DNA of 64,000 bases. It comes from Bacteroidota bacterium (GTDB taxonomy: Bacteria > Bacteroidota > Bacteroidia > Bacteroidales > FEN-979). A program made the position numbers and the translations under genes. The notes under the pieces were generated by a model. The model saw only the letters and a list, made by a program, of their open reading frames with translations. It searched no databases and was not told the origin of the DNA. This document shows positions 14,487 through 33,975 of the stretch, in pieces. Location: positions 1 to 64,000 of the forward strand of contig JAPLDH010000050.1 of the NCBI GenBank assembly GCA_026391355.1. Direction: 5' to 3'. Each line of letters begins with the position of its first letter. Position 1 is the stretch's first letter.

Positions 14487-14513
14487 TTGCATTTTAATGA
14501 ATTGCCACAACTA

Positions 14514-15074: not shown

Positions 15075-15097
15075 GACTATTCAAGTAAGCAAAACGG

Positions 15098-16852: not shown

Positions 16853-16898
16853 ACAATGGTTTTAGATTAAGAAACTCAGCCCCAGGGGTTGGATTAAA

Positions 16899-17354: not shown

Positions 17355-17369
17355 ATGCTGTCTCCTGTT

Positions 17370-18170
17370 TTATCCTCCGATAAAATGAAAAAGATCATTT
17401 GTGTTGGCCAATCCTTTTTCAGGCTTACTTTCTATGGCTTTTAGGAGCGCTTCCCTGATACCATATTCCCTGATACTGAAAGCAAGGTCATTGAAAAGGC
17501 ATGGTTTTATCCATCCATTTGCCGTTAACCTTAACCGGTTACATTTAACACAGTTGCCGCCATCACCGTTTTCGACCAGGGCAAAACACCCTGTCTCCAG
17601 GTTCATCTCATGGATGAACCTGGCTTCAAGGTCATTTTTCCTGCAGAAATCCCTGACCTCGGCGGCATCCGGTTCTGAGGAGGAGTTCCTTACCACGCAG
17701 TTTATTTTGACAGGGGTCAGTCCTGCTTTTTTCGCTGCATCGATACCTTCAAAGACGTCGTCAATGTTGCCTCCCCGTGTAATCTGGCTGAACTTATCAC
17801 GATCCACGGTATCAAGACTGATATTGATCCTGTGTAAACCCGCCTTAACAAGGTCTTTGGCATATTTTGCAAGCAGGGTGCCGTTCGTTGTAAGCCCAAG
17901 ATCGAGGATGCCATCTGTTTTCGCGAGCATTTCCACGAACTGCACAATACCTTTTCTGACCAACGGCTCACCTCCTGTTATCCGCACCCTGGATATCCCC
18001 AGTTTAACAGCTTCCTTCACTACCGCGATCATCTCCTCATAGGATAGAATCTCATTATGGCTGATCAACCGGATCCCCCCGGCAGGCATACAGTATAAAC
18101 ACCGGAGGTTGCAACGGTCCGTCACGGATATCCGCAGATAATTGATCTCCCTGTTAAACCTGTCGTACAT
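17370..18170 (-). CDS. moaA: GTP 3',8-cyclase, short form
   Basis: A 266-residue radical SAM protein. The N-terminal cluster motif is CNLRCLYC (Cx3Cx2C) with RITGGEPL following. The C-terminal cluster motif is CVKCNRLRLTANGWIKPC (Cx2Cx13C). The protein ends in a Gly-Gly dipeptide (FIGG), required for activity in MoaA. About 50-60 residues usually found between FIxFM and the second cluster are absent (FIHEMNLETGCFALVENGDG instead), so it is shorter than the usual 320-340. All catalytic elements remain, and I think it is functional. It overlaps moeA by 17 bp. Confidence 0.92.
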   Translation of the reverse strand: MYDRFNREINYLRISVTDRCNLRCLYCMPAGGIRLISHNEILSYEEMIAVVKEAVKLGISRVRITGGEPLVRKGIVQFVEMLAKTDGILDLGLTTNGTLLAKYAKDLVKAGLHRINISLDTVDRDKFSQITRGGNIDDVFEGIDAAKKAGLTPVKINCVVRNSSSEPDAAEVRDFCRKNDLEARFIHEMNLETGCFALVENGDGGNCVKCNRLRLTANGWIKPCLFNDLAFSIREYGIREALLKAIESKPEKGLANTNDLFHFIGG

Positions 18171-19326: not shown

Positions 19327-19396
19327 GAGGAATTAACAAATTACGATTTACGACTTACGACTTATAACTTACAACTTACAACTTACAACTTATTGA
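19327..19396. repeat. Tandem ACTTACAACT/ACTTACGACT words
   Basis: About six degenerate 10-11 bp copies between moeA and the ABC ATPase gene. It belongs to the same kind of word-like intergenic repeat seen at 21300-21385, 31110-31175, 51360-51455 and 62820-62900. There are no unique spacers, so it is not a CRISPR array. Confidence 0.7.
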
Positions 19397-19410
19397 TGCA
19401 AAGGTACAAA

Positions 19411-20463
19411 TTATGAGGGTATAAAGCGGAGTGAAGTGGCTTTGAAGCTGATCCAGATGGTTTTGCCCTCTTCAAGTGAGAGATGCACCATGGATTCGCG
19501 TGTAATCAAAGCATGAATGACCACCCCTATATCCACGAGGACTTCAATTCCTGACCTTGACGGGATCAGTTCCTTCACAACTCCTTCAAAATTATTAATG
19601 GCGCTTGAATCGAGTCTATGTAAAGATAGCAGAATATCCTCTGCCCGGATCATGAGGTAACCGGTACCGGACGTACATTCACCTGGAAGGCAGACGGATA
19701 TCCTGTTATTAATTAAAACGGTAGCCTGATTCTGTTCATTTGCAGCGGAAACGTTAAAGAAATTCTTAACCCCTGTAAAATGAGCAATAAATCCGGATTT
19801 GGGATTTTGAAAGATCTCTTCCGGAGTACCGGATTGCAGGATCTCTCCATCATGGATTACAGCAATCTTATTTCCCAGAGAGATCGCTTCTTCATAATCG
19901 TGTGTTACATGAATGATGGTTTGTCCATTTTTGTTCAATCCCCTTAATAATTTTCTGAGTTCTTCACGCAGGTGGGTATCCATGGAAGCCAGGGGTTCGT
20001 CAAGCAAAAGGATCAGGGGTTCCTGTATCAACGTACGGGCAAGGGCGATCCGTTGTAATTCGCCCCCTGACAGTGTAGCAGGTTTGCGGGATAACAGGGA
20101 TCCTATCCCCATTTTTTCCGCTATGTTTTTCACTTTCAGGTTTCTTTCTGAATGGGGAAAATGCTTTCCATGTAACGGGTAACCGACATTCTCGGCGACA
20201 GTCATGTGAGGAAATACAGCATGATCCTGGAAAACCAGTCCAATACGGCGGTGCTGGATCTTTTCGTGCGTGATATCCCGTTGGTTGAGCATTACCTGGC
20301 CGGAATCAGGAATGACGAGTCCGGCAATGGTTTCAAGAACCATCGATTTTCCGGCACCTGAAACACCGAGGAGAATAAAATAGTCGCCTTTTTCCACGGT
20401 AAAGTTGATGGATTTCAGGGAGAAGGCGCCTTTATTGACAGAAATATTTTTTAATTCAAGCAT
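19411..20463 (-). CDS. Tungstate/molybdate ABC transporter, ATP-binding protein
   Basis: A 350-residue ATPase. Walker A is GVSGAGKSM, the signature is LSGGELQRIALA, Walker B is LILLLDEPLASMD, and the H-loop is IHVTHDYEEA. Residues 285-350 form a TOBE domain, which binds oxyanion in ModC/WtpC proteins. The gene follows the permease by 46 bp on the minus strand. With the WtpA-like binding protein it makes an importer of tungstate or molybdate; the binding-protein type favours tungstate. Confidence 0.9.
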   Translation of the reverse strand: MLELKNISVNKGAFSLKSINFTVEKGDYFILLGVSGAGKSMVLETIAGLVIPDSGQVMLNQRDITHEKIQHRRIGLVFQDHAVFPHMTVAENVGYPLHGKHFPHSERNLKVKNIAEKMGIGSLLSRKPATLSGGELQRIALARTLIQEPLILLLDEPLASMDTHLREELRKLLRGLNKNGQTIIHVTHDYEEAISLGNKIAVIHDGEILQSGTPEEIFQNPKSGFIAHFTGVKNFFNVSAANEQNQATVLINNRISVCLPGECTSGTGYLMIRAEDILLSLHRLDSSAINNFEGVVKELIPSRSGIEVLVDIGVVIHALITRESMVHLSLEEGKTIWISFKATSLRFIPS

Positions 20464-20509
20464 CGTCAGCTATTGTGATAGGATCTTTTCCATATGATAT
20501 TTTTCTGAT

Positions 20510-21313
20510 CTATCGTTTTGAAGATTCACTGTTTTTTTCCTTGGCAAGATACCGTAAAAGAATAAAGAGGGTCAGTGTGATCAGGATGAACAGCACGGAA
20601 ACGGGCCTTGCATACTTAAGGCCAAATGCGCCAAAGCGTTCATAGATCAGCACAGGAGTAACCATTGGGTGATAGGCCACGATGGCAACGGCTCCGAATT
20701 CACTCATTCCCCTGGCGAACATCAGGATGAGTCCTGAAACAATGTTCCTCCAGGCAAGAGGTAAAGAGATGGTGAAAAATACCCTGACAGGGGAAGCACC
20801 CAACGTCAGGGCGGCCTTTTCCAACCGTTCAGGAACACCCAGAAAACCATCTCTGGCTGCATTTATCAGGTAGGGAATACTGACAAATGCCATGGCTACT
20901 GCAATTCCGGCAGGGGCTCCGACAAAATCAAGGCCTATTAGAGATCCCATCTTTCCGAGTATGGAATTCCTTGAAACAAAGCCAAGGATGGCAATCCCGG
21001 CTGCTGAATGGGGTATCACCACGGGAAGATCAATGATGCCGGTAATGAGCTTTTTTAATGGAAACGATTTCCGGGCCAGTAAATAAGAGAGAGGTACAGC
21101 AGCGATCGCAAAAAAGAGGGTTGTTGCCATCGATATCCATATTGTCAGCCAGATGCTTTGCCGCACTTCGGGTTCTTTCGCTGTATCAAACAGCGAAACA
21201 GGAGAGGTAGCCAGGAACATCCCCAGCAACGGGGAGAGGATGAAGAGCAGTACCAGGGCACCGAGCAGGAGGAAAATACTATGGAGAAGGGAGAACTTCA
21301 ATTCATTGACCAT
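20510..21313 (-). CDS. Tungstate/molybdate ABC transporter, permease
   Basis: A 267-residue inner-membrane protein with about six hydrophobic helices. The cytoplasmic EAA loop is AALTLGASPVRVFFTISLPLAWRN in essence (EKAALTLGA then LPLAWRN). IDLPVVIPHSAAGIAIL is the typical ModB/WtpB segment before it. It pairs with the ATPase downstream. An ACCATTTACC word-repeat tract separates it from the next gene upstream. Confidence 0.9.
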   Translation of the reverse strand: MVNELKFSLLHSIFLLLGALVLLFILSPLLGMFLATSPVSLFDTAKEPEVRQSIWLTIWISMATTLFFAIAAVPLSYLLARKSFPLKKLITGIIDLPVVIPHSAAGIAILGFVSRNSILGKMGSLIGLDFVGAPAGIAVAMAFVSIPYLINAARDGFLGVPERLEKAALTLGASPVRVFFTISLPLAWRNIVSGLILMFARGMSEFGAVAIVAYHPMVTPVLIYERFGAFGLKYARPVSVLFILITLTLFILLRYLAKEKNSESSKR

Positions 21314-21385
21314 TTACCATTTACCATTGACTATTGCATTTACCATTTACTATTGACCATTAACTCACCAGTTCACCAGCTCACC
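21300..21385. repeat. Tandem CATTTACCATT and CTCACCAGTT words
   Basis: Two kinds of short words (ATTGACCATTTACC and AACTCACCAG) are repeated several times in the gap before the permease gene and overlap its first codons. No structure or coding signal is evident. Confidence 0.6.
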
Positions 21386-21388
21386 AGT

Positions 21389-22477
21389 TTATAAAGTGCT
21401 AAACCTTATCTCAGCGACTGCCTTTACAGCCCTGTCGGAAAAGAAATCACCACCGGGAAAAAGCCGGAATTTTCCCCCATCCTTTTCATTATCCTTACAG
21501 GGAACCAGCAGGAGGTCCGATTGGTCATTCCTGTTCATCACCTCACTGAATGAGAATACTGAACGATAGCCATCCATCGCGATAATGGCAAACAACCCTG
21601 TTTTCAAATTTTTCTTATCCAAAGGGATATATTTTCCGAGGAGCTCTTTCATGTAAATGCCGGTAAAAGGCTCCGTACTGTGAATTCCGCGACCCCTGCC
21701 ATAAAAGATCGTATGGACGGTTTCCAACTGTTCTTCCTTGGGTAATTCTTTGATCGTGGCCAATGTTTTATCATCAGATAAAATGTTCATCGACGGTGAA
21801 TACAAAGGGGACATTCCGCGATTGACAGGAATCGACTTCTCATATGATTTAACTGTGATCTTTACAGGATTTGAGATATTCCTTTCGGTAATAAGGTCCT
21901 TTGCGGCAATCAGTTTCCTTTCACCAGGTAAGGGCCAATGATCCTTGGTTTTACTGGGAACGATGCAGGAAACATCAGTGGCAATGATAATGTTGTGAAG
22001 GTTGACCGGATAATAAATCTCTCCCCAGCTGATGATGACCTTTTCACCTTTATCGTTCTCGATTTCAACATAAAGATCAATGATTGACGGGAATGTTTCC
22101 CTGTTTTTCTTTTTAATGTACCTGTTATTTAAAATATCGAACAGGGAATAACCATCATACCGATACGCACCGATAAATTTATCTTTCCCATCCGCAGTCA
22201 GTAAGGTTTCCTTAATAATGACTGAATGTTTCGGCAGTAAAGTAAGGTCAACGAATCCCGGGTTCTCAACCTCTCCGGCGATTTCCAGTTGTCCGCCATT
22301 CAGGGGATAGGTTGGAGTGTTATCATAGAAGTTATTGTTTCTGTCGGAGGTATCCATTGTCATTTCAGGAATTTTCATGGGTTCTTTGCTTTCGGGTATC
22401 TTTTGTCCGAATGAGTTATGTGGTATGATCATACCAAAAAAAATAGTGATAAGGAGGATTCCGGATGATTTTCTCAT
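21389..22477 (-). CDS. Secreted protein with two sulfite-oxidase-fold-like domains
   Basis: A 362-residue protein with a signal peptide (LLITIFFGMIIPHNSFGQ). Two regions look alike: residues 65-215 (LEIAGEVENPGFVDLTLL, YRYDGYSLFDIL) and 235-362 (FTGIYMKELLGKY, AIIAMDGYRSVFSFSE). They have the layout of the molybdopterin-binding sulfite-oxidase-like domain, but the cofactor-ligating Cys is not at the expected place in either. It may bind oxyanion or ligand without cofactor. It lies between the binding protein (60 bp) and permease genes, so it is probably part of the tungstate uptake operon and acts in the periplasm. Function is unknown. Confidence 0.55.
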   Translation of the reverse strand: MRKSSGILLITIFFGMIIPHNSFGQKIPESKEPMKIPEMTMDTSDRNNNFYDNTPTYPLNGGQLEIAGEVENPGFVDLTLLPKHSVIIKETLLTADGKDKFIGAYRYDGYSLFDILNNRYIKKKNRETFPSIIDLYVEIENDKGEKVIISWGEIYYPVNLHNIIIATDVSCIVPSKTKDHWPLPGERKLIAAKDLITERNISNPVKITVKSYEKSIPVNRGMSPLYSPSMNILSDDKTLATIKELPKEEQLETVHTIFYGRGRGIHSTEPFTGIYMKELLGKYIPLDKKNLKTGLFAIIAMDGYRSVFSFSEVMNRNDQSDLLLVPCKDNEKDGGKFRLFPGGDFFSDRAVKAVAEIRFSTL

Positions 22478-22537
22478 GTCAGGAATAGTTAGACAACCGC
22501 CGGTTTAAGGTTCTTCCGGGTTATTTGAAAAAAAATG

Positions 22538-23506
22538 TTATTTCGATGGTTTTGCAAAAGGTTTCAGCTCTTTTGGCAGCTTTTCGTAATTCTTTGTTTC
22601 CATAGGGATTACCGATGGCTGACCATTTTGTTCAACAATTTTCATCCCTTTATCTTTGGAAAGGAAAAACTGAAGGAAAGCAATGGCTGCGGTTTTATTG
22701 GGCGCATCCCGGAGCATGGTGAGACTATATACCATCGGCTCGCCTTTCACCGTCTCCTTTTTCCCGGGCTCTTTCCCGGTGATCTCTGCCACTGCTGTTG
22801 CATACCGGCTTGCAAATGCAGGATTTTTAAGGTTGATCTCATCCGGAAGGAGCAGGTATTTCAGTTTGTGCTGGATAGCTACCGAACGGTAGAGGAAAAT
22901 ATAATCAACGCTGCCGGTTTCGAGTAACGCCAGCAGATCGACCTCTTTCGGACGGATTAAGTTCTTGTTTTTGTTACTGATTGAATTCGTCAATCCGGGT
23001 TTTTTATAATACTTCTCAGCAAGTTGCAGCATCATGACCGTTCGATATCCACAGGGATCCGCATTGGGGTCGGCCCGGCCAAAGGCGACGTCCTCTTTCA
23101 GCAGCAGATCAAACCAGTTTTTGTTGTTTATCTCCGTTGCATGGCGCGATTTTTCAGAGTAAACGATACAAAGCTCATTTGTGGCGAATTTGAGGTTCCA
23201 GTCAGCATATTCCGGGATAAGCATGTTATCAATCACTCCATAATCAGAAGAGGCAAGAATATCGCATGGTTTGTTCAGGTCAGTGATCTTGCGTGCAGAT
23301 GCCACGCTGCCTGCTGATTCCATGAGCACTTTCACGTCAGGATAAAGTTTATTGAATTCTGCCGCTGCTTCTTTCATGGGTACAGAAAGACTGCCGGCGT
23401 GGAATATGACCAGGTCACCCTGTATTCCTGTTGATTTATGTTGAGCCATCATTCCCGGATTATTCATAAAACCAAAGAGCAAAAATAGTATCAGTACCTT
23501 CTTCAT
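22538..23506 (-). CDS. wtpA: WtpA-like tungstate/molybdate-binding protein
   Basis: A 322-residue periplasmic protein with a signal peptide ending near MMAQ. The family motifs are LVIFHAGSLSVPMKE near the start, ILASSDYGVID, YADWNLKFATNELCIVY, and RADPNADPCGYRTVM with the metal-oxyanion ligand region. These are the motifs of the WtpA/archaeal type, which prefers tungstate, rather than of classical ModA. It is the first gene of the uptake operon. Specificity for tungstate is inferred from family type and from the AOR gene nearby. Confidence 0.88.
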   Translation of the reverse strand: MKKVLILFLLFGFMNNPGMMAQHKSTGIQGDLVIFHAGSLSVPMKEAAAEFNKLYPDVKVLMESAGSVASARKITDLNKPCDILASSDYGVIDNMLIPEYADWNLKFATNELCIVYSEKSRHATEINNKNWFDLLLKEDVAFGRADPNADPCGYRTVMMLQLAEKYYKKPGLTNSISNKNKNLIRPKEVDLLALLETGSVDYIFLYRSVAIQHKLKYLLLPDEINLKNPAFASRYATAVAEITGKEPGKKETVKGEPMVYSLTMLRDAPNKTAAIAFLQFFLSKDKGMKIVEQNGQPSVIPMETKNYEKLPKELKPFAKPSK

Positions 23507-23569
23507 AGCGTTGAACTTTTATTATTTATTGGGTTATCTCACCCCCCGGTAAGGAGGTTTTATCTTATC

Positions 23570-23944
23570 CTATTTCAGATCGGCAATAAATTGTTCGAAA
23601 CCTTCCTGTATCACGGAATCTACTGAAGCATGGAAGGTGTCGAATGCTTTCACCAGGCGTTTTCCTTCTGCTGTAAGGACTGTATTCCCCCCATCACTGC
23701 CGCCACGGTGTTTCTCAAGTAAAGGAAAGCCGAAAAACTGTTCGATCTTTCGAAGGTTCCCCCAGGTCCTGCGATAGGTGTAACCCAATTCGTCGCAAGC
23801 GGCTTTCAAGGAGCCTTTTTCTTCTATCAGTTTCAGCATTTGCCATTTACCATCTCCAAGGATCCCCTGTTCCCGGGCATCAGACATCCATATCTTATAA
23901 TGTAGTTGAATACTATCAAGCCTGCCGGTAAATTTTGTCCCCAT
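23570..23944 (-). CDS. modE: ModE-type molybdate/tungstate-responsive regulator
   Basis: A 124-residue protein starting MGTKFTGRLDSIQLHYKIW. It has the ModE N-terminal winged helix (GDGKWQMLKLIEEKGSLKA, GYTYRRTWGNLRKIE, then HRGGSDGGNTVLTAEG). No C-terminal molybdate-binding Di-Mop domain is present, so metal sensing may need another protein or a bound cofactor. I choose ATG 23944; the further upstream in-frame GTG at 23980 would lie inside the operator. A palindrome matching a ModE box lies 36 bp upstream. It is the first gene before wtpA, 63 bp away. Confidence 0.87.
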   Translation of the reverse strand: MGTKFTGRLDSIQLHYKIWMSDAREQGILGDGKWQMLKLIEEKGSLKAACDELGYTYRRTWGNLRKIEQFFGFPLLEKHRGGSDGGNTVLTAEGKRLVKAFDTFHASVDSVIQEGFEQFIADLK

Positions 23945-23961
23945 CGTTCTTCTCTTTACCG

Positions 23962-23969
23962 CAAAATTA
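23962..23969 (-). promoter_or_regulatory. Predicted -7 element of the modE promoter
   Basis: TAATTTTG on the minus strand fits TAnnTTTG. It places the start near 23956. The ModE box lies at 23980-24003, over the expected -33 region, as expected for repression. Confidence 0.5.
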
Positions 23970-23979
23970 GAATATTTCA

Positions 23980-24003
23980 CGATATGTTTAATTTTGCATA
24001 TCG
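23980..24003. promoter_or_regulatory. Putative ModE box 1 (modE/pruA intergenic)
   Basis: A perfect inverted repeat: CGATATG, ten bases (TTTAATTTTG), CATATCG. Size and AT-rich half-sites resemble the ModE operators of proteobacteria (a long inverted repeat around CGTTATAT). It lies in the divergent region between modE and pruA. An identical design occurs upstream of the AOR gene (28327-28350). Confidence 0.75.
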
Positions 24004-24041
24004 AAAAAAATATATATAATTTAGAATCAATCTAAAAAACG

Positions 24042-24049
24042 TACCTTTG
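24042..24049 (+). promoter_or_regulatory. Predicted -7 element of the pruA promoter
   Basis: TACCTTTG fits TAnnTTTG and lies 19 bp before the pruA ATG. Its -33 region would be near 24019, 16 bp from the ModE box. Confidence 0.5.
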
Positions 24050-24068
24050 TAAAATCAAAACAAGCACT

Positions 24069-25709
24069 ATGAACAATGCAATTTTTCAAATGGACCGGCC
24101 TGATAATGAACATGTTTATGATTATGCACCGGGTTGTAAGGAAAGAAAAGCGCTGAATGCTGAACTGGAGAGGCTGAGCAGCGTGATCACGGAGATACCA
24201 CTGATCATCGGAGGAAAAGAGATCAGGACGGGAAATACCGGTAATGTAGTGATGCCGCATGATCATGCCCATGTAGTTGCAACCTATCATAAGGCCGGGG
24301 AAAAAGAGGTGAAGATGGCCATTGATGAAGCCTTGAAAGCACACAGGGAATGGTCGGCGATCTCCTGGGTGGAGAGGGTTTCAATAAATCTTAAGATAGC
24401 TGAACTGATCGCAAAGAAGTACCGTTTTCTGATGAACGCTGCAACCATGGCGGGTCAGGGGAAAAATGCATACCAGGCAGAAATTGATGCTGCATGCGAG
24501 GTAATCGATTACCTCAGGTTCAATGCTTTTTTTGCATCAGAAATTTACAAGCTCCAGCCGGGTTCACAGCCCGGGATCATAAATCGTTTTGAATACCGGC
24601 CGCTGGAAGGTTTTGTTTTCACCGTTTCACCGTTTAATTTCACGGCGATCGGGTCGAACCTGAACATGGCGCCTGTACTCATGGGCAATACGGTTGTCTG
24701 GAAACCGTCAACAACCGCATTATTGTCGAATTATTTCCTGATGAAGATATACCAGGAAGCAGGTATTCCTGACGGTGTGATCAATTTTCTCCCGGGATCG
24801 GGAGGGATGATCGGAAATATTGTTTTCCGGCATCCTGAATTTGCAGGATTACATTTTACGGGATCTACAGCAACCTTTAATGAGATTTGGAAGAATATTG
24901 CGGATAATATAGGGAATTACAGGTCATATCCGAGAATAGTAGGAGAAACGGGGGGTAAGGATTTTATTTTTGTGCATCCTTCCGCTGATCCGCAGGAGGT
25001 GGCGGTTGCCATTGTCCGGGGTGCATTCGAATTTCAGGGACAGAAATGTTCTGCTGCCTCACGCGGCTATATACCGGAATCGCTGTGGGAAGATATCAAG
25101 GCCAGGATCAAAGAGATGATTTCGAGGATAACCGTGGGCGATGTCACCGAATTCAGCAATTTCATGAATGCAGTGATCGATGATAAATCGTATGAGAACA
25201 TCATGAATTATATCGGATATGCGAGGAATTCCAAGGATGCAGAAATTATTACCGGAGGGAAAGGAGATAAAACAAAAGGGTATTTCATTGAACCTACTAT
25301 TATCCAGGTGAAGGATCCTCATTTTAAAACCATGGAGGAGGAGATTTTTGGCCCGGTAATGTCGATTTATGTTTACAAGGACAAGGATCTAAAAGAGACA
25401 CTAAAGATATGTGATGCAACTTCGCCGTATGCATTGACCGGGTCGGTATTTTCGAAAGACCGCGAAGCGCTCGCTGAAGCCTGCAGAATTCTCCGGTATG
25501 CTGCAGGGAATATCTATTTCAATGATAAACCCTCGGGAGCAGTTGTAGGCCAGCAACCATTTGGGGGCGCCAGGGCATCGGGTACCAACGATAAATCCGG
25601 GTCTTACCTGAACCTTTTACGATGGACCAATCCGCGAACGATCAAGGAAACCCTGATCCCACCTACAGAGTTTACCTATCCTTTCATGAAGGAAGACCGG
25701 TGTCATTGA
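24069..25709 (+). CDS. pruA: L-glutamate gamma-semialdehyde dehydrogenase
   Basis: A 546-residue aldehyde dehydrogenase of the 1-pyrroline-5-carboxylate dehydrogenase type. The NAD-binding signatures VVWKPSTTALLSN and HFTGSTATFNEIW are present. The catalytic Glu is in GETGGKDFIF and the Cys in GQKCSAASRGYIP. It oxidises glutamate semialdehyde to glutamate in proline breakdown. A PutP-like symporter gene lies 5.5 kb to the right. It reads away from modE across a putative ModE box and ends directly before the DUF3795 stop codon. Confidence 0.95.
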   Translation: MNNAIFQMDRPDNEHVYDYAPGCKERKALNAELERLSSVITEIPLIIGGKEIRTGNTGNVVMPHDHAHVVATYHKAGEKEVKMAIDEALKAHREWSAISWVERVSINLKIAELIAKKYRFLMNAATMAGQGKNAYQAEIDAACEVIDYLRFNAFFASEIYKLQPGSQPGIINRFEYRPLEGFVFTVSPFNFTAIGSNLNMAPVLMGNTVVWKPSTTALLSNYFLMKIYQEAGIPDGVINFLPGSGGMIGNIVFRHPEFAGLHFTGSTATFNEIWKNIADNIGNYRSYPRIVGETGGKDFIFVHPSADPQEVAVAIVRGAFEFQGQKCSAASRGYIPESLWEDIKARIKEMISRITVGDVTEFSNFMNAVIDDKSYENIMNYIGYARNSKDAEIITGGKGDKTKGYFIEPTIIQVKDPHFKTMEEEIFGPVMSIYVYKDKDLKETLKICDATSPYALTGSVFSKDREALAEACRILRYAAGNIYFNDKPSGAVVGQQPFGGARASGTNDKSGSYLNLLRWTNPRTIKETLIPPTEFTYPFMKEDRCH

Positions 25710-26060
25710 TCAATTCCGCTTGATGGACTGGAGCTTGTTCTCCGCCATGAATCTGGCGAATCCCTCATAACCCGATTCCCTGATCATTGCGATGCAGGCC
25801 TTTCGATCGGATTTGAACAGCACGGCGAAGATTTTCGACATGAAATTATTGAATTTCTTACACTCCATGACATCCGTAAAATCCTTACAGTCTGCACAAC
25901 TCTGGTAACCATGTTCAATGTTGCATGCCCTGATTTTACACCAGCCTGCTTTATTATTTTCATGGCAACCCGGACATTTATCCTTTAAATAGGATTTACA
26001 GGATCCACAGTACAGTCCGCAATAAGCGATCAGGTTTTTGTCGGCAGTGATTTCTTTCAT
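25710..26060 (-). CDS. DUF3795 cysteine-rich protein
   Basis: A 116-residue protein starting MKEITADKNLIAYCGLYCG. Ten Cys residues are spread over the first 75 positions (CGLYCGSCKSYLKDKCPGC, then WCKIRAC and CADC), which fits the DUF3795 family and suggests metal or cluster binding. It follows the AOR stop by 25 bp on the same strand, so it is probably co-transcribed with AOR. This invites a role in electron transfer or maturation, but that is inference. Confidence 0.8.
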   Translation of the reverse strand: MKEITADKNLIAYCGLYCGSCKSYLKDKCPGCHENNKAGWCKIRACNIEHGYQSCADCKDFTDVMECKKFNNFMSKIFAVLFKSDRKACIAMIRESGYEGFARFMAENKLQSIKRN

Positions 26061-26085
26061 AAGGTTTGTATTTATTATTGGATTG

Positions 26086-28248
26086 TTAGTCCTGATAAGG
26101 AGCCACTGTTTCAATCAATTCGGGCAGGTCCATTCCGAGGGCTTTCAGGTGTTCAATCTTTGGAACGCCATTTTTAGTCCACCCACGGCGGGTATACACA
26201 GCATCGAGAAGTTGCTCGTATTGATTTTCGCGGTGTTTACGGAGAACGGACATTTTTTCTTCTGTTGATTTCCCGGCAGGGTCGAACCCGACTTTTTCAA
26301 TCAATTGCTTATCATAACGTTCTGCACGTGATTCGTATTCTTCCTTTGTTACAGGACCACAGGCACGATAGGGTTGTGCATCGTGTTTACGGGTGCCATA
26401 ACCACGGCGAAGGTTGAATATCCGCTGGAAGTTATATACTCTTTCCGATTGCCGCACCAGTTCTTTTTTGTCGATGTTTTGTCCCGTCACTGCATTAAAG
26501 ATGGTAACGTAATTGTCGACATGTTCCGGGACTTTTGCAGGTTCACCGGACTCTGCGTTGTTCTCGGGTTCAACATCGTTCCAGGGAAGCTTGCAGAATC
26601 CGGCCAGGCCGAACCAGGTGCGGAACATCGGGAAATAATGCAACGCTTCAGCTTTCTTCTCGAAAGTAGGGATCTGGTTATTCACCATGTCCATGAAAAT
26701 CAACCAGGCTTCGTCGTGTTGAGGACCTTTGTTAGTCATGGCATATCCGCCCTGCTGGGCAAGTGACTCCTTGGAAACGTATTGCGAATACTCAAGGCCT
26801 TTGTTTTCCATTCCGATATCCTGCATAAATTGTGCATCTCCCCACCCATTTTTGGCAAAGATCCCTTTCATTTTCCTGACACCCTGACCGGCAGTCAGTC
26901 CAAAACCTTCACCCCGTGAAACCTGGTGCAGCAATTCCATAGCGTCGTCGGCATTCCCAAAGTTGAGTTTTAAACCACCGGTCCGTTCCTCGTTAATGAT
27001 GCCATTTTCATAACATTCCATAACGAATCCGAGAATGGTTCCCCAGGAAATTGTACAGATGCCATAAGTATCACAATAGAAATTGGCCTCGATCGTGAAA
27101 TCAGGATTAAAGATACCCGCTATTGAACCGAGCGAGGAGGTAGTTTCATATTCAGGACCATCGACAATTACCTTTTGTCCTTTGTAAGGCCCTGAGCGGA
27201 GTTCATAGTTGTCTACACCTTTGGCACACGACATATTGCAGCCGATCCAGCATCCATCAGGTACATTCTGTGTAAAGAAGGATTTCCACACATCTCCCCG
27301 GATCTTGAATGCGTCCGGATGGCTTCCAAACTTAAAATTATTGACCGGTAAAAGATCATAGTCGTTCATGATAAGGGTGAGGTGAGCCGTTCCTTTGGAC
27401 CTCATCTCGCATTGTTTGTCGTCGAGTTCCCGCATCTCTTTATTGAACTTCCGTCCACGTTCCTGGATAGCTTCCATGTTCACGACATTGTTACGGTTAC
27501 CACCAATGTTTTTCACTTTTGCTACAAGGGCTTTGATCTTTTTATCCCTGAGAACGGTTCCAATACCACCGCGACCCGCCTGTTTCAAACGGACCAGCTT
27601 GCGTTTTGTATCATAAAAGGTAAAATTCAGCATGCCGATCAGTGAATGTTCGGCAGCAGTTCCTGCAGAAACAACAGCAACATTCATTTTATCTTTTTCA
27701 TTTCCATCTTTGGCAAAAGTTTCATGAAGAATCTCACCAAGTACATGACTATCCGACGGAAGGTCACCTGCTTCATAAACTTCAATGGTTTCACGTTCTT
27801 CATCCAAAAGGATCAGTATCTCCTGGTCTGATTTTCCCTGCACCTCGAGTGCATCAAACCCGCAAAACTTAAGGAATGGGCCAAAAAAGCCGCCGACATT
27901 CGAGTCGACGATGCAATCGGTTTGAGGGCTGATGGCACAACATATCGCTTTGCCTGAACCGGAATACTGGGTAATTCCGCAACAAGGACCACCTGAAATA
28001 ACAATCTCATTTTCAGGATCATTCCATTTTGTTTCAGGTTTTGTGGCATCCCATAAAAGCCGGAGATCGAATCCCTTGCCGCCAATGAATTTGTCCTTCA
28101 TCTGCTGACTTACCGGTTTCTCTTTGATGGAAAAATCAGAGACATTGATGTACAATGTCCTGTTGTTATATCCTTTATCAATCGGCGCCCAGGTGTACTT
28201 GTATGATTTTAACAGTTTGTGTTTTGCCTTAAATTCTTCGAAGTTCAT
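26086..28248 (-). CDS. aor: Aldehyde ferredoxin oxidoreductase-family tungstoenzyme
   Basis: A 720-residue protein of the AOR family. The N-terminal domain (residues about 35-240) contains FIGGKGFDLRLLWD and NEIVISGGPCCG, then AGRGGIGTVLRDKKIKALV. The C-terminal domain holds three cluster Cys at 333, 337 and 341 (CWIGCNMSC) and a likely fourth at 552 (GFCKLPW). The usual spacing is Cx2Cx3C; here it is Cx3Cx3C, so this is a side branch of the family. It oxidises aldehydes or carries out a related low-potential reaction with a bis-pterin tungsten cofactor and a [4Fe-4S] cluster. The substrate is not predictable. A ModE box lies 79 bp upstream. Confidence 0.88.
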   Translation of the reverse strand: MNFEEFKAKHKLLKSYKYTWAPIDKGYNNRTLYINVSDFSIKEKPVSQQMKDKFIGGKGFDLRLLWDATKPETKWNDPENEIVISGGPCCGITQYSGSGKAICCAISPQTDCIVDSNVGGFFGPFLKFCGFDALEVQGKSDQEILILLDEERETIEVYEAGDLPSDSHVLGEILHETFAKDGNEKDKMNVAVVSAGTAAEHSLIGMLNFTFYDTKRKLVRLKQAGRGGIGTVLRDKKIKALVAKVKNIGGNRNNVVNMEAIQERGRKFNKEMRELDDKQCEMRSKGTAHLTLIMNDYDLLPVNNFKFGSHPDAFKIRGDVWKSFFTQNVPDGCWIGCNMSCAKGVDNYELRSGPYKGQKVIVDGPEYETTSSLGSIAGIFNPDFTIEANFYCDTYGICTISWGTILGFVMECYENGIINEERTGGLKLNFGNADDAMELLHQVSRGEGFGLTAGQGVRKMKGIFAKNGWGDAQFMQDIGMENKGLEYSQYVSKESLAQQGGYAMTNKGPQHDEAWLIFMDMVNNQIPTFEKKAEALHYFPMFRTWFGLAGFCKLPWNDVEPENNAESGEPAKVPEHVDNYVTIFNAVTGQNIDKKELVRQSERVYNFQRIFNLRRGYGTRKHDAQPYRACGPVTKEEYESRAERYDKQLIEKVGFDPAGKSTEEKMSVLRKHRENQYEQLLDAVYTRRGWTKNGVPKIEHLKALGMDLPELIETVAPYQD

Positions 28249-28278
28249 AGTAAGTTTGTTTTGTGAGTTAATTCACAG

Positions 28279-28286
28279 CAAAAATA
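28279..28286 (-). promoter_or_regulatory. Predicted -7 element of the AOR promoter
   Basis: TATTTTTG on the minus strand, about 30 bp before the AOR ATG, fits TAnnTTTG. Transcription would start near 28272. The ModE box centre then lies about 66 bp upstream of the start. Confidence 0.45.
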
Positions 28287-28326
28287 TTGAAAAATTCTTA
28301 TATAAATGATGGATTTTCAAAAAGTT

Positions 28327-28350
28327 CGATATGTTTACCGGTGCATATCG
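28327..28350. promoter_or_regulatory. Putative ModE box 2 (upstream of AOR)
   Basis: A perfect inverted repeat: CGATATG, ten bases (TTTACCGGTG), CATATCG. Half-sites and spacer length equal those of the box at 23980-24003. It lies between the stop of the carboxyltransferase gene and the AOR promoter, upstream of the -33 region, a position compatible with activation. Confidence 0.75.
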
Positions 28351-28385
28351 CCTTTCGCTTTTTCAGTATCCCTGGAAATCAGGAT

Positions 28386-30119
28386 CTATGATCTTCCAAG
28401 GTCTTCATCAGGGTATGAAAGCCATTGGTAGTTATAAAGGCCTTCGAGTAAACGGTTTCTTTTTTCTTCCGGTGTCAGGCGTTCATAGGCTTCGCGTGCT
28501 TCCTGGTGTTTACGTCGTTTTTCTTCCTCGATGTGGTATATGTTTGTCAGATACCGTTCTTCTACACATTTGGTAAGGAAATCGCGTGCCACTGTCGGAA
28601 AGAGCTCCAGAAGCAATTCATCCTTCTCTGTTTCCGCAAGTTTCATGTCGCCATAATCTTCGAAAACAGTATTTTCCTGCTTTTTATAATTTTTTGTGTC
28701 ATAAGGGGTTTCTTCCCTGACACCGGTGAGCTCTTCGCGAAAATCAGGATCCACGGGAATGGGTGTTTTTCCATAGATCCCTTTCACGAGGTTGACAAAC
28801 TGAATGGATTTTGTTGTAAAGAAGGGCATGCCTTTATTTTCATCGATTACACAGTTTACGGCCTGAACACCAACGATCTGGCTGGTAGGGGTAACGAGCG
28901 GAGGGCATCCCGATTTTATTCTCACCAGTGGCACCAGTTCAAGCACACGGGGTAACAGATGATCCAACCTGAGTTGTTTCAGTTGTGCAAGCATATTGGT
29001 GTACATACCACCGGGAATTTCAGCTCTTTTCACGGTTTCGTCAGCTTCCGGAAAGTTAAAATATTTCTCAATTTCGTGGCATGCATCGAGGAGTTCTTCT
29101 TCCTTGTCGCGTTTTGCCATATAGATAGCTTTTGTGAAGAGACGGTTGATCTCACGTGACAGCTTATAATCAGAGATATCAAAGTCGATAGGGAACACTT
29201 TGTAGGAGTCGAATTCCGAGAGTTCTTCCCTAATGATTTTCAGCTCTTTATTGATCTTTGCAACAGCCTTAAGGTTAACGCCGGTATCAATTCCGAGGCG
29301 GTCAGCAAAGATCTGGACAATCTCAAAAGCGGGTGCAGCGGGTCCTCCTGCAAAGTTCAGGATGGAAGTATCGACAATGTCTACCCCATTGATCATTGCC
29401 ATCAGAACCGAAGCCAGTCCGAATCCCGGGGTGCAATGGGTATGAAAGTCAACCGGAACGTTTACCTCTTCTTTTAATTGCCGGATCATTTTCCCGGCTC
29501 TCAGGGGAGTGACAAGTCCGGCCATATCCTTGATACTGATCATATCCGCACCCAGGGATTCCATTTCTTTTGCCTTTTCAACAAAATACTCGATGGTGAA
29601 TATATTATGGGGCAACGATTTAAAATGGGCCCATGATTTTATCTTTTGTTTGGCTGAGAACTTGGGATCGACCGTATAACTGATGGCACAATCGGCAATA
29701 CCCCCGCTTTCCCTGACATACCGGATGGTGGATTTCATATTATCCACGTCATTCAGTGCATCAAAGATCCGCATAATCCCAATTCCGGATTTAATAGCAT
29801 TCCGGTTAAAACCTTCGATAACATCTTCAGGATATGGATTGTATCCAAACAGGTTCCTTCCCCTGGAGAGTGCGGTTAATAAAGAAATATCACCAATTGC
29901 AGTTTTAATTTTTTCAAGCCGGTCCCATGGGTTTTCTCCGAGATAACGCATTACCGAATCAGGTACGGCACCGCCCCAAACCTCCAGGGCATAAAAATTT
30001 GCTTCCTTGTAAAAAGGAAGAACACGGTCAACCTGATCCTGCGTCATTCGGGTTGCAAACAGCGATTGCTGGCCATCACGCAAGGTCAGATCCCGGATAA
30101 GTAGCTTTCCTCTCAGCAT
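28386..30119 (-). CDS. Carboxyltransferase, pyruvate carboxylase subunit B/oxaloacetate decarboxylase alpha type, no biotin domain
   Basis: A 577-residue protein. The TIM-barrel carboxyltransferase domain shows RDLTLRDGQQSLFATRM (metal-binding Asp and substrate Arg), LNDVDNM, IKDMAGLVTP with the active-site Lys, and the metal-binding DFHTHCTPG. It is followed by a PYC_OADA conserved domain (GGMYTNMLAQLKQL). The AMKM biotin-carrier domain found at the C-terminus of many relatives is absent; the tail is charged and helical. It therefore needs a separate biotin carrier. It moves carboxyl groups between pyruvate and oxaloacetate. It is upstream of AOR on the same strand, but the AOR promoter separates them. 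Confidence 0.88.
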   Translation of the reverse strand: MLRGKLLIRDLTLRDGQQSLFATRMTQDQVDRVLPFYKEANFYALEVWGGAVPDSVMRYLGENPWDRLEKIKTAIGDISLLTALSRGRNLFGYNPYPEDVIEGFNRNAIKSGIGIMRIFDALNDVDNMKSTIRYVRESGGIADCAISYTVDPKFSAKQKIKSWAHFKSLPHNIFTIEYFVEKAKEMESLGADMISIKDMAGLVTPLRAGKMIRQLKEEVNVPVDFHTHCTPGFGLASVLMAMINGVDIVDTSILNFAGGPAAPAFEIVQIFADRLGIDTGVNLKAVAKINKELKIIREELSEFDSYKVFPIDFDISDYKLSREINRLFTKAIYMAKRDKEEELLDACHEIEKYFNFPEADETVKRAEIPGGMYTNMLAQLKQLRLDHLLPRVLELVPLVRIKSGCPPLVTPTSQIVGVQAVNCVIDENKGMPFFTTKSIQFVNLVKGIYGKTPIPVDPDFREELTGVREETPYDTKNYKKQENTVFEDYGDMKLAETEKDELLLELFPTVARDFLTKCVEERYLTNIYHIEEEKRRKHQEAREAYERLTPEEKRNRLLEGLYNYQWLSYPDEDLGRS

Positions 30120-30244
30120 AGTAATTGTATAGTTGTTATTAGTTTCACAAAATTAGTGGTTTTTATATTACCCAAATTTATATTTTTGTAAGTGAAAGGG
30201 AGAGAATAATTGATGAATTGATGAATTATTGAGTTGTTGATTAA

Positions 30245-30826
30245 ATGACCTTCGAAGAGATAAAATTACGGTTGCAGAAGAAAACTGTGGGAATTGCCGG
30301 GGCAGGAGGGTTGGGATCCAATTGTGCCGTTGCATTGGTGCGGGTTGGTATTGGGACTATTGTTATTGCTGATTTTGATGTGGTAAGTGAAGGCAATCTC
30401 AACCGTCAGTATTATTTCTTCGACCAGATCGGGAAACCCAAAGTCAACGCAATAAAAGAAAACATTCAAAGGATCAATCCTATGGCAAATGTTATTACCT
30501 GGGATCTTAAACTTGACCCGCAAAACCTGAACAGGATTTTCAGGAATTGTGACGTGGTTGTTGAAGCTTTTGATAATGCTGACCAGAAGGAGATGCTGAT
30601 CGAGACAATACTTACTGCTTATCCGGAAAAACCGCTGATCGTTGGTCTTGGAATGGCAGGATGGGGAATGAATGATACAATACATGTCAGAAAGATCGAT
30701 AATATGTATATTTGCGGGGATGAGGTTTCAGAAATCCATAACGAGTTGCCTCCAATTGCTCCCAGGGTAGGTATTGTGGCCAATATCCAGGCGAATGTGG
30801 TTCTGGAGATATTGTTGAAAGATTAA
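30245..30826 (+). CDS. ThiF-family adenylyltransferase, short form
   Basis: A 193-residue E1-like protein. GIAGAGGLGSNCAVALVRVG is the ATP-binding glycine loop; DVVSEGNLNRQYYF holds the Arg finger and Asp; DADQ-like VVEAFDNADQKEML follows. The two CxxC zinc motifs of E. coli ThiF/MoeB are absent. Members of this short type activate a ThiS or MoaD-like carrier. The ThiS-like gene starts 50 bp downstream, so the pair may serve thiamine or molybdopterin/tungstopterin sulfur transfer; the AOR and cofactor genes nearby make the latter plausible (inference). Confidence 0.85.
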   Translation: MTFEEIKLRLQKKTVGIAGAGGLGSNCAVALVRVGIGTIVIADFDVVSEGNLNRQYYFFDQIGKPKVNAIKENIQRINPMANVITWDLKLDPQNLNRIFRNCDVVVEAFDNADQKEMLIETILTAYPEKPLIVGLGMAGWGMNDTIHVRKIDNMYICGDEVSEIHNELPPIAPRVGIVANIQANVVLEILLKD

Positions 30827-30876
30827 GAATGAACTGGTGAATTGGCCAGTGAAAAAAATAATTTATGTAAAGCAAG

Positions 30877-31080
30877 ATGAAGATAATATTAAATAATAAT
30901 CCGGAAACAGTTGATGTTGACCAGATTTCGATTACAGAATTGTTGAGAAGAAAGAATTATTCTTTTAAGATGTTGATTGTGAAGATTAATGGTAAACTGG
31001 TAAAGAAGGATGAATATGAGGCTTCATTTATCAAGGATGGAGATGATGTAATGGTGCTGCACCTGATCAGCGGAGGATAA
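30877..31080 (+). CDS. ThiS/MoaD-like sulfur carrier protein
   Basis: A 67-residue beta-grasp protein ending in VLHLISGG, with the C-terminal Gly-Gly that is adenylylated and thiocarboxylated. ISITELLRRKNY is the central helix. It follows the ThiF-like gene and probably is its substrate. It is assigned ThiS-like by sequence, but a MoaD role cannot be excluded since no moaD/moaE appears in the window. Confidence 0.82.
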   Translation: MKIILNNNPETVDVDQISITELLRRKNYSFKMLIVKINGKLVKKDEYEASFIKDGDDVMVLHLISGG

Positions 31081-31092
31081 AAGTGAATGACG

Positions 31093-31112
31093 CCTGCCTG
31101 CCGGCAGGCAGG
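31093..31112. repeat. 20-bp perfect palindrome CCTGCCTGCC/GGCAGGCAGG
   Basis: Two CCTG words facing two CAGG words with no loop. It lies between the thiS-like gene and the symporter, followed by AT-rich GAATATGCGAATGACG tandem words (31113-31175). This GC-rich palindrome is a widespread interspersed motif in environmental Bacteroidota and related genomes (from memory). Confidence 0.8.
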
Positions 31113-31175
31113 AATATGCGAATGACGAATATGTGAATGACGACTATGCGAATGACGAATATGCGAATAGCCAAT
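31113..31175. repeat. Tandem AATATGCGAATGACG words
   Basis: Four degenerate 15-bp copies downstream of the palindrome, in the gap before the symporter. No coding or hairpin signal is seen. Confidence 0.7.
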
Positions 31176-31215
31176 ATTTCCTTATTCATACTTCATAAAC
31201 CATAATTATTTTTCT

Positions 31216-32661
31216 ATGTTGTTTGTATTCATCCTTTATCTTATTGCCACGATGTTTATCGCGTGGTGGTATTCCCGTGGGGAAAAGACAAATGCCGAGT
31301 TTGTTCTTGGCGGGAAAAAGTTTTCCGGTACTGCCCTGGCATTATCGGAGAGGGCTACAGGGGAATCAGCCTGGCTGCTCCTGGGACTTACCGGTTATGC
31401 TTACTCTGACGGGTTGAGCGCTATTTGGGTAGCATTGGGATGCGTAATCGGGATCACTTTTATCTGGCTGGTGATGGCAAGCCGGTTAAGGAGAGAAACG
31501 GAGCGTTCAGGTGTAATGACCATTTCAAGCCTTCTTTCGAAAAGGTTTCCGGGAGCAGAAAAACCGATTGGGATGCTTTCTGCAATTATTGTGGTCTTCT
31601 TTTTTATCTTTTACATTGCTGCTCAATTCAGCGGTTCAGGAAAAGTGTTGAATAAAACCTTCGGGTTGGATCCATTCTGGGGCATCATCATCGGATCTTT
31701 TGTGGTGACGGTATATTGTGTGATGGGCGGCTTCATTGCTGTTGTCGTTACCGATGTTTTCCAGTCGATCCTGATGATCTTCACACTCGTGGCTTTTCCA
31801 ATAATTGCAATCGTTATCGCATCAACACAAAATATTCATATAGCACAGATCATTGAAAATGCGGATCCTGCTTATTTATCTTTTACCCACGGTAAAACCG
31901 GTTCGGCGGCGGTCATTCTGGTGATGAGCGGTTTGAGTTGGGCATTGGGGTATACCGGACAGCCACAGCTATTGACGAGGATGATGGCGATCAGGAATGA
32001 GAAAGAAGTGAAAACAGCCAAAAAAGTAGCGGTCACCTGGACCATCTTTGCATATATCGGGGCCATCCTGATCGGGTTGTTCGGGATTGCTTTTGTGAAA
32101 GGCGGACCCCTGACCGCAGAAGCTCCGAAACTATTGCAGGATGCAGAAAAGATTCTGCCTGTTATGGTAATTGCACTTGTAAATCCGATCCTTGCCGGGA
32201 TTCTGCTTTCGGGTGTAATCTCTGCAATGATGTCGACAGCCTCATCGGAAGTCACGGTTTCCTCTGCTTCCATCACAGAAGATATTTACAAAAATCTCAA
32301 AAAAAATTCCCCATCCCCGAAACGGATGCTGATGCTGAACCAGATTGTAACACTTGCGATTGGAATAGTGGCGATCATTCTTGCACTGACAATGGCAGAT
32401 ACAGTTTACGGTTTGGTCTCCTATGCCTGGTCAGGAATCGGTTCATCTTTTGGTCCCGCTTTACTTCTCCTGTTATTCTGGAAAAAGTTTTCAAGGGCAG
32501 GCATGTTTGCCTCCCTGATCACAGGGACGGTAGCAACCGTAATCTGGAAGAACCTGTTTGAGACTTCTACCGGGGTATCAGAGAGGCTTGCCAGTTTCAT
32601 CATTGCGTTCGTGATGGCTGTATTATTTTCTTTACTGATCCCTGAAAAGACGAAAGCCTGA
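31216..32661 (+). CDS. Sodium:solute symporter, SSS family (PutP-like)
   Basis: A 481-residue inner-membrane protein with about 13 helices. GGKKFSGTALALSERATGESAW is a family landmark (ALSERATGESAWLLLGL). The sodium/solute-binding segments GGFIAVVVTDVFQ and SGVISAMMSTASSEV are present. The closest usual relatives are sodium/proline symporters, and pruA in the window supports proline as substrate (inference). It is convergent with folC, sharing no space. Confidence 0.87.
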   Translation: MLFVFILYLIATMFIAWWYSRGEKTNAEFVLGGKKFSGTALALSERATGESAWLLLGLTGYAYSDGLSAIWVALGCVIGITFIWLVMASRLRRETERSGVMTISSLLSKRFPGAEKPIGMLSAIIVVFFFIFYIAAQFSGSGKVLNKTFGLDPFWGIIIGSFVVTVYCVMGGFIAVVVTDVFQSILMIFTLVAFPIIAIVIASTQNIHIAQIIENADPAYLSFTHGKTGSAAVILVMSGLSWALGYTGQPQLLTRMMAIRNEKEVKTAKKVAVTWTIFAYIGAILIGLFGIAFVKGGPLTAEAPKLLQDAEKILPVMVIALVNPILAGILLSGVISAMMSTASSEVTVSSASITEDIYKNLKKNSPSPKRMLMLNQIVTLAIGIVAIILALTMADTVYGLVSYAWSGIGSSFGPALLLLLFWKKFSRAGMFASLITGTVATVIWKNLFETSTGVSERLASFIIAFVMAVLFSLLIPEKTKA

Positions 32662-33975
32662 TCAAACTACTTCTGCCACTACGAACATGCTTCCTCCAAC
32701 GAAAACAAGATCTTCTCCGGTAGCATTTGCCCTGGCTGCTGCAAGGGCAGTTGCAACGGAAGGATAGGCATCTCCATGCAAACCTGCTTTGAATGCCACA
32801 TTTTGCAGGTTATGCTGATCGAGCCCTCTTGGGATATCTGCTTTACAGAAGTAATAAACAGCATCGCGCGGCAACAATTCAAGGATGGTGTGAATATCTT
32901 TATCATTGACCACTCCGAAAACAAAATGCAGTATTTTGTGAGGTGTGGCATCGATCTGCATCAAAACTTCTTTGATCCCTTCTTCATTATGTCCTGAATC
33001 ACAGATTGTTAAAGGTAAACGCGATAAGATCTGCCAGCGACCGGAAAGATGAGTGTTTTTTATCACGCGTTGGATCCCTCTCCGGATTTCTTCCCTTGTT
33101 ATGTCAATCCCGGTTTTTGAGAGCATCTCGAAGACCCCGGCCACGGTTACGATATTTTTTTTCTGGTATCTTCCCTGCAATGGTGACCTGAGGGAAGTTA
33201 AAAAGAGTTTGTTTATCCGGAAAACATCCAGAATCAGATAATGGTTGTCAGTTGATTTTACCGGAGGCTTTGGCATTTGTTTATGTTCAGCCACTGAATA
33301 GATACCATCAGCAAATAAAATTTCCGAACCGGTCGATTTTGCTTTCTCAATAAAGACAGATCTTGTACTTTCACCTGTTTCACCGATAACCACAGGTACA
33401 CCCGGTTTAATGATCCCTGCTTTTTCCGCTGCAATTTTTTCGAGTGTGTCGCCCAGAAATTGCATATGATCGAAGCTGATATTTGTGATGACGGAAACCA
33501 GGGGAGTGATCACGTTTGTGGAGTCGAGCCGTCCACCCATACCAACCTCGATCACGGCGATATCCACCTTCTCCTGCCTGAAATAATCAAAAGCAAGTCC
33601 GGCAGTCATCTCAAAAAAAGAGGGTTGGATCCTTTCAAACCCGGCTTTGTACCGGGCTACAAAATCCGTAATGAAACTTGTACGGATCTTTTTCCCATTG
33701 ACAAGGATACGTTCACGGAAATCTTTCAGGTGAGGCGATGTATATAATCCGGTTTTAAGGCCTTTTTCCTGAAGTACGGAAGCGATCATGTGCGAAGAAG
33801 ATCCTTTCCCGTTGGTTCCGGCTATGTGGATGCTCCTGAAGTGATCCTGGGGATTACCGAGCAGGTCACATATGGCAATGGTGTTGGTGAGGTCAGCACG
33901 GTAGGCAGCAACTCCGATACGCTGATACATCGGGAGCTGAGAAAACAGATAAGCAATAGTGTCGGCGTAATTCAT
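32662..33975 (-). CDS. folC: Folylpolyglutamate synthase/dihydrofolate synthase
   Basis: A 437-residue Mur-ligase-family enzyme. The P-loop is HIAGTNGKGSSSHM. VDIAVIEVGMGGRLDSTNV is the folate-binding/metal segment. The C-terminal domain carries VGGSMFVVAEV. It adds glutamate to folates and, in many bacteria, makes dihydrofolate. It is the last gene of the murF-anmK-folC operon, 11 bp after anmK. Confidence 0.93.
   Translation of the reverse strand: MNYADTIAYLFSQLPMYQRIGVAAYRADLTNTIAICDLLGNPQDHFRSIHIAGTNGKGSSSHMIASVLQEKGLKTGLYTSPHLKDFRERILVNGKKIRTSFITDFVARYKAGFERIQPSFFEMTAGLAFDYFRQEKVDIAVIEVGMGGRLDSTNVITPLVSVITNISFDHMQFLGDTLEKIAAEKAGIIKPGVPVVIGETGESTRSVFIEKAKSTGSEILFADGIYSVAEHKQMPKPPVKSTDNHYLILDVFRINKLFLTSLRSPLQGRYQKKNIVTVAGVFEMLSKTGIDITREEIRRGIQRVIKNTHLSGRWQILSRLPLTICDSGHNEEGIKEVLMQIDATPHKILHFVFGVVNDKDIHTILELLPRDAVYYFCKADIPRGLDQHNLQNVAFKAGLHGDAYPSVATALAAARANATGEDLVFVGGSMFVVAEVV

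Follow-up and report, generated by a model that had tools for sequence, protein, structure and literature searches.

Why does a Bacteroidota genome carry the same long palindrome twice within a few kilobases, in the divergent gap between a modE gene and a pruA gene and again upstream of a gene for an aldehyde ferredoxin oxidoreductase (AOR)? The first-pass annotation of the 64,000-nucleotide stretch analysed here (the window) had described two copies of CGATATG-N10-CATATCG with identical half-sites and spacer length and different spacers. A scan of the window sequence confirmed this exactly, with no mismatch in either copy (Table 1). No third site had been seen by eye, and the scan likewise returned none at up to two mismatches; the single three-mismatch match, at position 2231, is within chance. 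In the whole genome (4,832,921 bases, spacers of 8 to 12) the pattern occurs at the two window sites only and the reversed control pattern nowhere. With up to two mismatches and a spacer of 10, six additional places appear versus three for the control, and since all six fall inside open frames of more than 110 codons, the genome holds just two intergenic sites. A pair of boxes 4.3 kb apart, both intergenic and unique in the genome, is beyond chance. Regulation through a structured RNA was considered and rejected, as Rfam at the gathering threshold gave no match in window positions 14000-33000.

Table 1. Features of the modE, pruA and AOR locus (positions in the window)
Feature	Position	Strand	Remark
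Box 1, CGATATG-N10-CATATCG	23980-24003	.	divergent modE/pruA gap; conserved in the family
Box 2, CGATATG-N10-CATATCG	28327-28350	.	upstream of AOR; 40 bp to AOR -7 box
modE, single-domain ModE-type winged-helix regulator, 124 aa	23570-23944	-	profile matches
Putative modE -7 promoter box TAATTTTG	23962-23969	-	motif TAnnTTTG
Putative pruA -7 promoter box TACCTTTG	24042-24049	+	motif TAnnTTTG
Putative AOR -7 promoter box TATTTTTG	28279-28286	-	motif TAnnTTTG
AACTTTTTGA element directly abutting box 2	28317-28326	-	conserved flank in AOR sites
pruA, NAD-dependent L-glutamate gamma-semialdehyde (P5C) dehydrogenase	24069-25709	+	TIGR01236
AOR, aldehyde ferredoxin oxidoreductase family (tungstoenzyme family), 720 aa	26086-28248	-	PF02730 and PF01314
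wtpA, tungstate-binding protein, next gene after modE	22538-23506	-	TIGR03730, 322.7 bits (cut-off 242.75)
wtpB and wtpC, ABC permease and ATPase	19411-21313	-	best NCBIfam matches, both below cut-offs
moeA, moaA, moaC and MOSC-MoCF fusion, cofactor synthesis	15923-19326	-	moeA and MOSC-MoCF by Pfam/NCBIfam
thiF-type E1 enzyme	30245-30826	+	in some relatives divergent from AOR, with a box common to both

The protein encoded beside box 1 matches TIGR00637 (ModE_repress) with 73.1 bits (E 1.5e-20), below the curated cut-off of 98.5, and a profile built from 31 of its relatives matches 2ijl (3.8e-17), 1b9m (1.2e-13) and 1o7l (1.7e-13). It possesses the ModE-type N-terminal winged-helix DNA-binding domain. 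By Pfam its 124 residues contain no C-terminal Mop (TOBE) domain, and it is consequently filed as a single-domain ModE-type regulator and not as an E. coli-type ModE. Of 100 genomes searched, counting that of the window, 54 have a ModE match; within the window's family the figure is 38 of 43 genomes. The flanking PruA scores 761.9 bits against the TIGR01236 equivalog model (cut-off 613.6) and matches solved P5C dehydrogenases; its next relative in the genome has 23% identity, and proline dehydrogenase is encoded elsewhere in the genome. The AOR, with both AFOR_N and AFOR_C domains and a match to 1aor (E 1e-50), is the only one in the genome at E ≤ 1e-30, and its family and the nearby WtpA point to tungsten-containing, ferredoxin-linked aldehyde oxidation. 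WtpC provides the sole TOBE match in the genome. Downstream of modE-wtp, the cofactor genes moeA-moaA-moaC-MOSC-MoCF possibly form one operon, judging from the short same-strand gaps; moaA and moaC are what we take these genes to be from inspection of their sequences.

Several other features of the genome deserve mention. A secreted-looking protein of 362 residues, with no Pfam or NCBIfam match, is encoded between wtpA and wtpB (21389-22477), and its homologue at one other locus (L294) has a box in common with a lipoprotein gene. The idea that AOR is the only molybdenum or tungsten enzyme of this genome was rejected on account of a molybdopterin oxidoreductase-like fusion on contig C9. The sole PF00384 match in the genome (L287) belongs to one long protein in which pyridine-nucleotide reductase, ferredoxin and molybdopterin domains are fused, and MoCoBD_1 has no match in the genome.

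We then counted boxes with up to two mismatches within 200 bp of the start codons of family copies, excluding regions shorter than 120 bases, matches starting far from the protein start and matches below the set identity. The box is found upstream of AOR in 34 of 40 copies, of modE in 27 of 38 and of pruA in 27 of 34, as well as within 200 bp of thiF in 9 of 21, while mononucleotide shuffles of the same regions reach it in 0-0.25%. By the same measure it is absent upstream of the family copies of wtpA (0/20), moeA (0/18), moaA (0/11), wtpC (0/9), oadA (0/8), wtpB (0/7), moaC (0/4) and three other genes (0/1 each). Of the orthologues for which the first-pass annotation had proposed such a scan, modE and AOR thus bear the box and wtpA in the family does not; a box at every transport and cofactor gene is rejected by the wtpA and moeA counts. 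The regulon of ModE and AOR suggested there is partly supported by the conserved sites. It was incomplete, as box 1 also lies at the divergent pruA promoter, which had been overlooked, and AOR and pruA are targets of roughly equal strength. Calling this regulon metal-responsive is a presumption, because this ModE is without the metal-binding Mop/TOBE domain.

A relaxed box, SGWTATG-N10-CATAWCS, gave a similar picture. It occurs in 40 of the 43 family genomes, at 77 forward sites versus 10 for the reversed control. We read 73 of the 77 (two sites of one genome, G007, were left out), assigning a target when a gene start lay within 300 bp, or by a looser rule for the lipoprotein set described below. 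Twelve sites lie at no target gene and 61 at one: modE and pruA together (16), AOR (13), pruA alone (11), the lipoprotein/TonB set (10), AOR and thiF together (8) and modE alone (3). This is neither lack of conservation nor random placement along the genome. The arms carry 1.7-1.9 bits per position and the spacers 0.4-0.6, so the sites look kept by selection and not copied.

These data bear on whether the palindromes might be a chance or mobile repeat. Both window copies have TTTA beside the left arm and TG beside the right arm; against such a repeat stand the two sites in 4.83 Mb with none for the control, arms that are kept while spacers diverge, and fixed positions at orthologous promoters in many genomes. 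Given the genome uniqueness, the conservation upstream of family genes and the fixed promoter positions, we reject this explanation, whose probability is close to nil. Comparison between genomes gives very strong support to a wiring of modE, AOR and pruA through a ModE-type box.

In some genomes the palindrome lies within a coding frame. At five loci (L108, L112, L113, L115 and L299) it is found inside the first codons of a lipoprotein frame, with the arms kept and the spacer varying; in the five genomes of genus g4 it overlaps the coding sequence at the 5' end of such a frame, and in G023 that of a TonB receptor-like frame.

The position of the box relative to the promoter differs between targets. 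We took TAnnTTTG, the -7 promoter motif of Bacteroidota, as the predicted -7 box. At modE, the gap between palindrome and this motif is 9-11 bp in 22 of 33 sites (10 bp in the window), which places the palindrome over the predicted -33 region; with ATG at 23944 taken as the start, as we did, the end of box 1 is 35 bp upstream of modE, the open-frame list giving a longer GTG start at 23980. At AOR, the gap is 39-42 bp in 41 of 44 sites with up to two mismatches, and the centre of the palindrome falls about 64 bp ahead of the predicted start of transcription. This gap is fixed even though the distance from box to AOR start codon varies from 70 to 175 bp (78 bp in the window). Such a contrast is as expected of a repressor site at modE and an upstream activator site at AOR, and the positions fit the roles, repression through box 1 and activation through box 2, that the first-pass annotation had assigned. 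The 3' flank of the box is also better conserved at AOR, with 1.21 bits per position versus 0.61 at modE and 0.52 at pruA. The AACTTTTTGA element found there, which is strongly kept in AOR promoters and not behind the boxes of modE or pruA, is neither a -7 box nor located at the usual -33 spacing.

The geometry at pruA is mixed. Among 38 sites, the gap to the -7 box is 6-12 bp in 17, 18 bp in one, 31 bp in one and 38-42 bp in four (the window, where it is 38 bp, and G003, G014 and G018), and 15 have no recognisable -7 box. Where a -7 box can be recognised at pruA (23 sites), the geometry is thus like that of modE in 17. The sign of regulation at pruA is, owing to this mixture, the weakest point of the interpretation.

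Taken together, we consider it probable that the single-domain ModE represses its own gene and activates AOR and that pruA, too, is occluded by it in the majority of relatives whose pruA promoter can be recognised. The palindromes would be the operators of the stand-alone ModE encoded beside box 1, which would bind them in dimeric form. With ample molybdate or tungstate, ModE would occlude its own promoter and activate the AOR gene from the upstream site; among relatives whose pruA promoter can be recognised, the box would in most (17/23) occlude pruA at the same time. If pruA is occluded in the presence of metal, the metal-free NAD-linked dehydrogenase would be made when metal is short, which amounts to an isozyme switch. 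In the window itself, where 38 bp separate the box from the -7 box of pruA, the effect on pruA may be of either sign.

The same operators could also work without any switch, AOR, pruA and the uptake genes being co-regulated in one direction, for example all made in the presence of tungsten so that both enzymes oxidise amino-acid-derived aldehydes. The four pruA sites with the box 38-42 bp before the -7 box, in an AOR-like arrangement, speak for this. One of them, in G014, has its box at 40 bp and keeps it despite an MFS-like gene that separates pruA from modE, so the AOR-like geometry at pruA is not only a by-product of the shared divergent gap. However, at 17 of the 38 pruA sites the distance from box to -7 box is 6-12 bp, as it is at modE, and at two loci (L267 and L276) 14-15 bp separate the end of the box from the start codon, which is hard to square with activation. 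Regulation in one direction is therefore unlikely, though a real contender, and we retain the isozyme switch as the working model.

Who binds the box is the next question. ModE is the likely binder, given the match of the frame to known ModE operators, the position of the box at the regulator's own gene and the occurrence of a variant box with a variant ModE. The operator adjoining E. coli modA reads CGTTATA-N10-CATAACG, and the E. coli ModE consensus is given as ATCGNTATATA-N6-TATATANCGAT in the available part of PMC545781; each of them comes down to a pair of 7-base arms separated by 10 bases, which is the frame of the window box. With two CGNTAT-type half-sites in the 7-10-7 frame, the window palindrome has the form of a ModE operator. 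At pruA in two genomes (L050, 4116-4139; L049, 4437-4460) the box reads CGAATTG-N10-CAAYTCG, and the neighbouring ModE carries a GDKKCELL motif; these two variant-ModE genomes suggest that box and protein change together.

A palindrome belonging to a different regulator, one sensing for example proline, P5C or aldehydes, with modE as a mere target or neighbour, was weighed against this assignment. It would account for pruA being the most frequent single gene at exact boxes outside the family (10/31). It would also agree with the lack of co-occurrence outside the family: among 57 non-family genomes of the order, an exact box is found in 1 of 16 with a ModE match and in 2 of 41 without, which is no association and weakens the case for ModE as the binder, as do three less complete family genomes (G022, G027 and G031, 80-90% complete) that have an AOR box and no ModE match. 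A second palindrome at pruA promoters points the same way: within the family, its TWAGAW...WTCYAAAT form is found upstream of pruA in 13 of 34 copies and in no AOR region, and is probably the site of another regulator. On the other side, the box agrees with the E. coli ModE operator in frame and half-sites, tungstate transport (two sites outside the family) is among its targets, as is the cofactor-dependent AOR, it is present at modE itself, and in two cases a box variant accompanies a ModE variant. A different regulator is thus quite improbable, and we keep ModE as the presumed binder. In the window, the second palindrome reads TTTAGA-N5-TCTAAA (24020-24036) and lies at the pruA promoter.

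To follow the box beyond the family we scanned named genomes for ModE and kept the best 80 of 215 relatives, nearly all of them from assemblies titled Bacteroidales or Bacteroidetes/Bacteroidota. The outside-family set comprises 43 of these 80, with a ModE identity of at most 64% (L243-L285). The gene order AOR, pruA, modE is found in 11 of the 43 loci, eight of the 11 with thiF before AOR and three titled Lentimicrobium. All 10 readable AOR upstream regions outside the family carry the box, two of them exactly and eight with two mismatches; each of these loci had been fetched via its ModE and not via the box, and matches below the set identity (60% for AOR) or with fewer than 100 bases upstream were excluded. 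The corresponding counts for modE (6/47), pruA (11/27) and wtpA (1/13) are biased upward, because some of these loci were fetched for an exact box. The small modE count, like the 12 family sites at no target gene, tells against the model.

Exact boxes were found in 31 of 393 genomes of the order. Outside the family there are 31 exact sites in 27 genomes versus 8 control matches, some of them on the same contigs as loci fetched via ModE (for example L307/L318 and L276), and one placed by its identity with L251. They lie at lipoprotein, TonB or secreted-protein genes (11), at pruA (10), which is the commonest single gene, at wtpA (2), at AOR (1), at thiF (1) and at an aldehyde dehydrogenase beside an AOR-like gene (1); of the five others, three are inside unrelated open frames. 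A second dehydrogenase gene comes after pruA in several of these genomes; for the one we tested, the best-scoring family is L-piperidine-6-carboxylate dehydrogenase, with 714.5 bits, below the cut-off of 730.

The lipoprotein sets were inspected at six loci (L126, L112, L251, L262, L330 and L334), where a lipoprotein would be controlled by the box, in some with a secreted protein and in most with a TonB-dependent receptor; the lipoprotein has no Pfam match in the four tested. These sets are candidate outer-membrane importers of molybdate or tungstate. Adding them to the isozyme switch leads to a wider reading, which we offer tentatively and consider rather less than probable: a tungsten economy run through a sensor-less ModE, in which AOR, acting on amino-acid semialdehydes, would replace NAD-linked semialdehyde dehydrogenases when metal is at hand, and in which, when it is not, ModE would come off its sites and the NAD enzymes and a ModE-controlled lipoprotein/TonB importer of molybdate or tungstate would be made. 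The NAD-linked dehydrogenases meant here are PruA and, in relatives, the adjoining piperideine-6-carboxylate dehydrogenase-like gene product.

ModE regulons are familiar above all from molybdate transport and molybdoenzymes. The present regulator resembles E. coli ModE in its winged-helix domain (1b9m, E 1.2e-13) and in an operator of the 7-10-7 frame, but differs in having no C-terminal Mop domains, in the innermost base of the half-sites, which is G/C on both sides of the window box, and in its Bacteroidales targets, namely AOR, P5C dehydrogenase and outer-membrane genes. A single-domain ModE without a sensor domain has been described in Desulfovibrio, where metal sensing is left unexplained in the available part of the source (PMC545781). 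The two proteins are alike in combining the ModE DNA-binding domain with the lack of a sensor; however, the Desulfovibrio boxes, given there as CGGTCACG-N14-CGTGACCG, depart from the E. coli frame that the window box keeps, and in the window genome no TOBE/Mop match is found other than WtpC. A ModE without a sensor domain poses a clear question, that of how metal is detected.

Isozyme switches controlled by cofactors offer a second comparison, as PMC545781 also describes cofactor-free enzymes predicted to be repressed when B12, nickel or iron is available. The proposed system is similar in that an alternative enzyme without the cofactor need would be repressed when the cofactor is present; it differs in the enzyme pair, a tungsten AOR and NAD-linked semialdehyde dehydrogenases, and in its ModE-type regulator. 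For the biochemistry, the closest case is Aromatoleum aromaticum, in which a tungsten AOR and phenylacetaldehyde dehydrogenase oxidise the same amino-acid-derived aldehyde, and deletion of the dehydrogenase raises AOR activity five-fold (PMC6365974, in the part available). As proposed here, AOR and another dehydrogenase would share one aldehyde; that AOR, in contrast, has three subunits, and no ModE box is reported in the available part of the paper. Genes for MoaD and often MoeB have been linked to AOR clusters (PMC1779556, in the part available), which fits the thiF gene having the AOR box in some relatives.

By term search of the main text, neither a 2026 paper classifying tungsten oxidoreductases (PMC13328260) nor a review from 2025 (PMC12096430) has a word starting with Bacteroid or proline. 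Among the matches listed for open papers, titles and abstract openings contained no Bacteroidota ModE regulon, no link of ModE or tungsten to P5C dehydrogenase and no TonB-dependent importer of molybdate or tungstate, which is weak evidence of absence. A conserved ModE-type regulon on a tungsten AOR and proline-pathway dehydrogenases would make semialdehydes a physiological lead for AOR, and would suggest an entry route for the oxyanions at the Bacteroidota outer membrane. The same box wiring recurs across many uncultured Bacteroidales, which suggests a metal-economy switch. Many of the assemblies among the best 80 of the 215 ModE relatives carry lake or sediment names. One further ModE (L214, 75% identity) groups with the window's Bacteroidales family although its record is titled Alphaproteobacteria, and probably comes from a mislabelled assembly.
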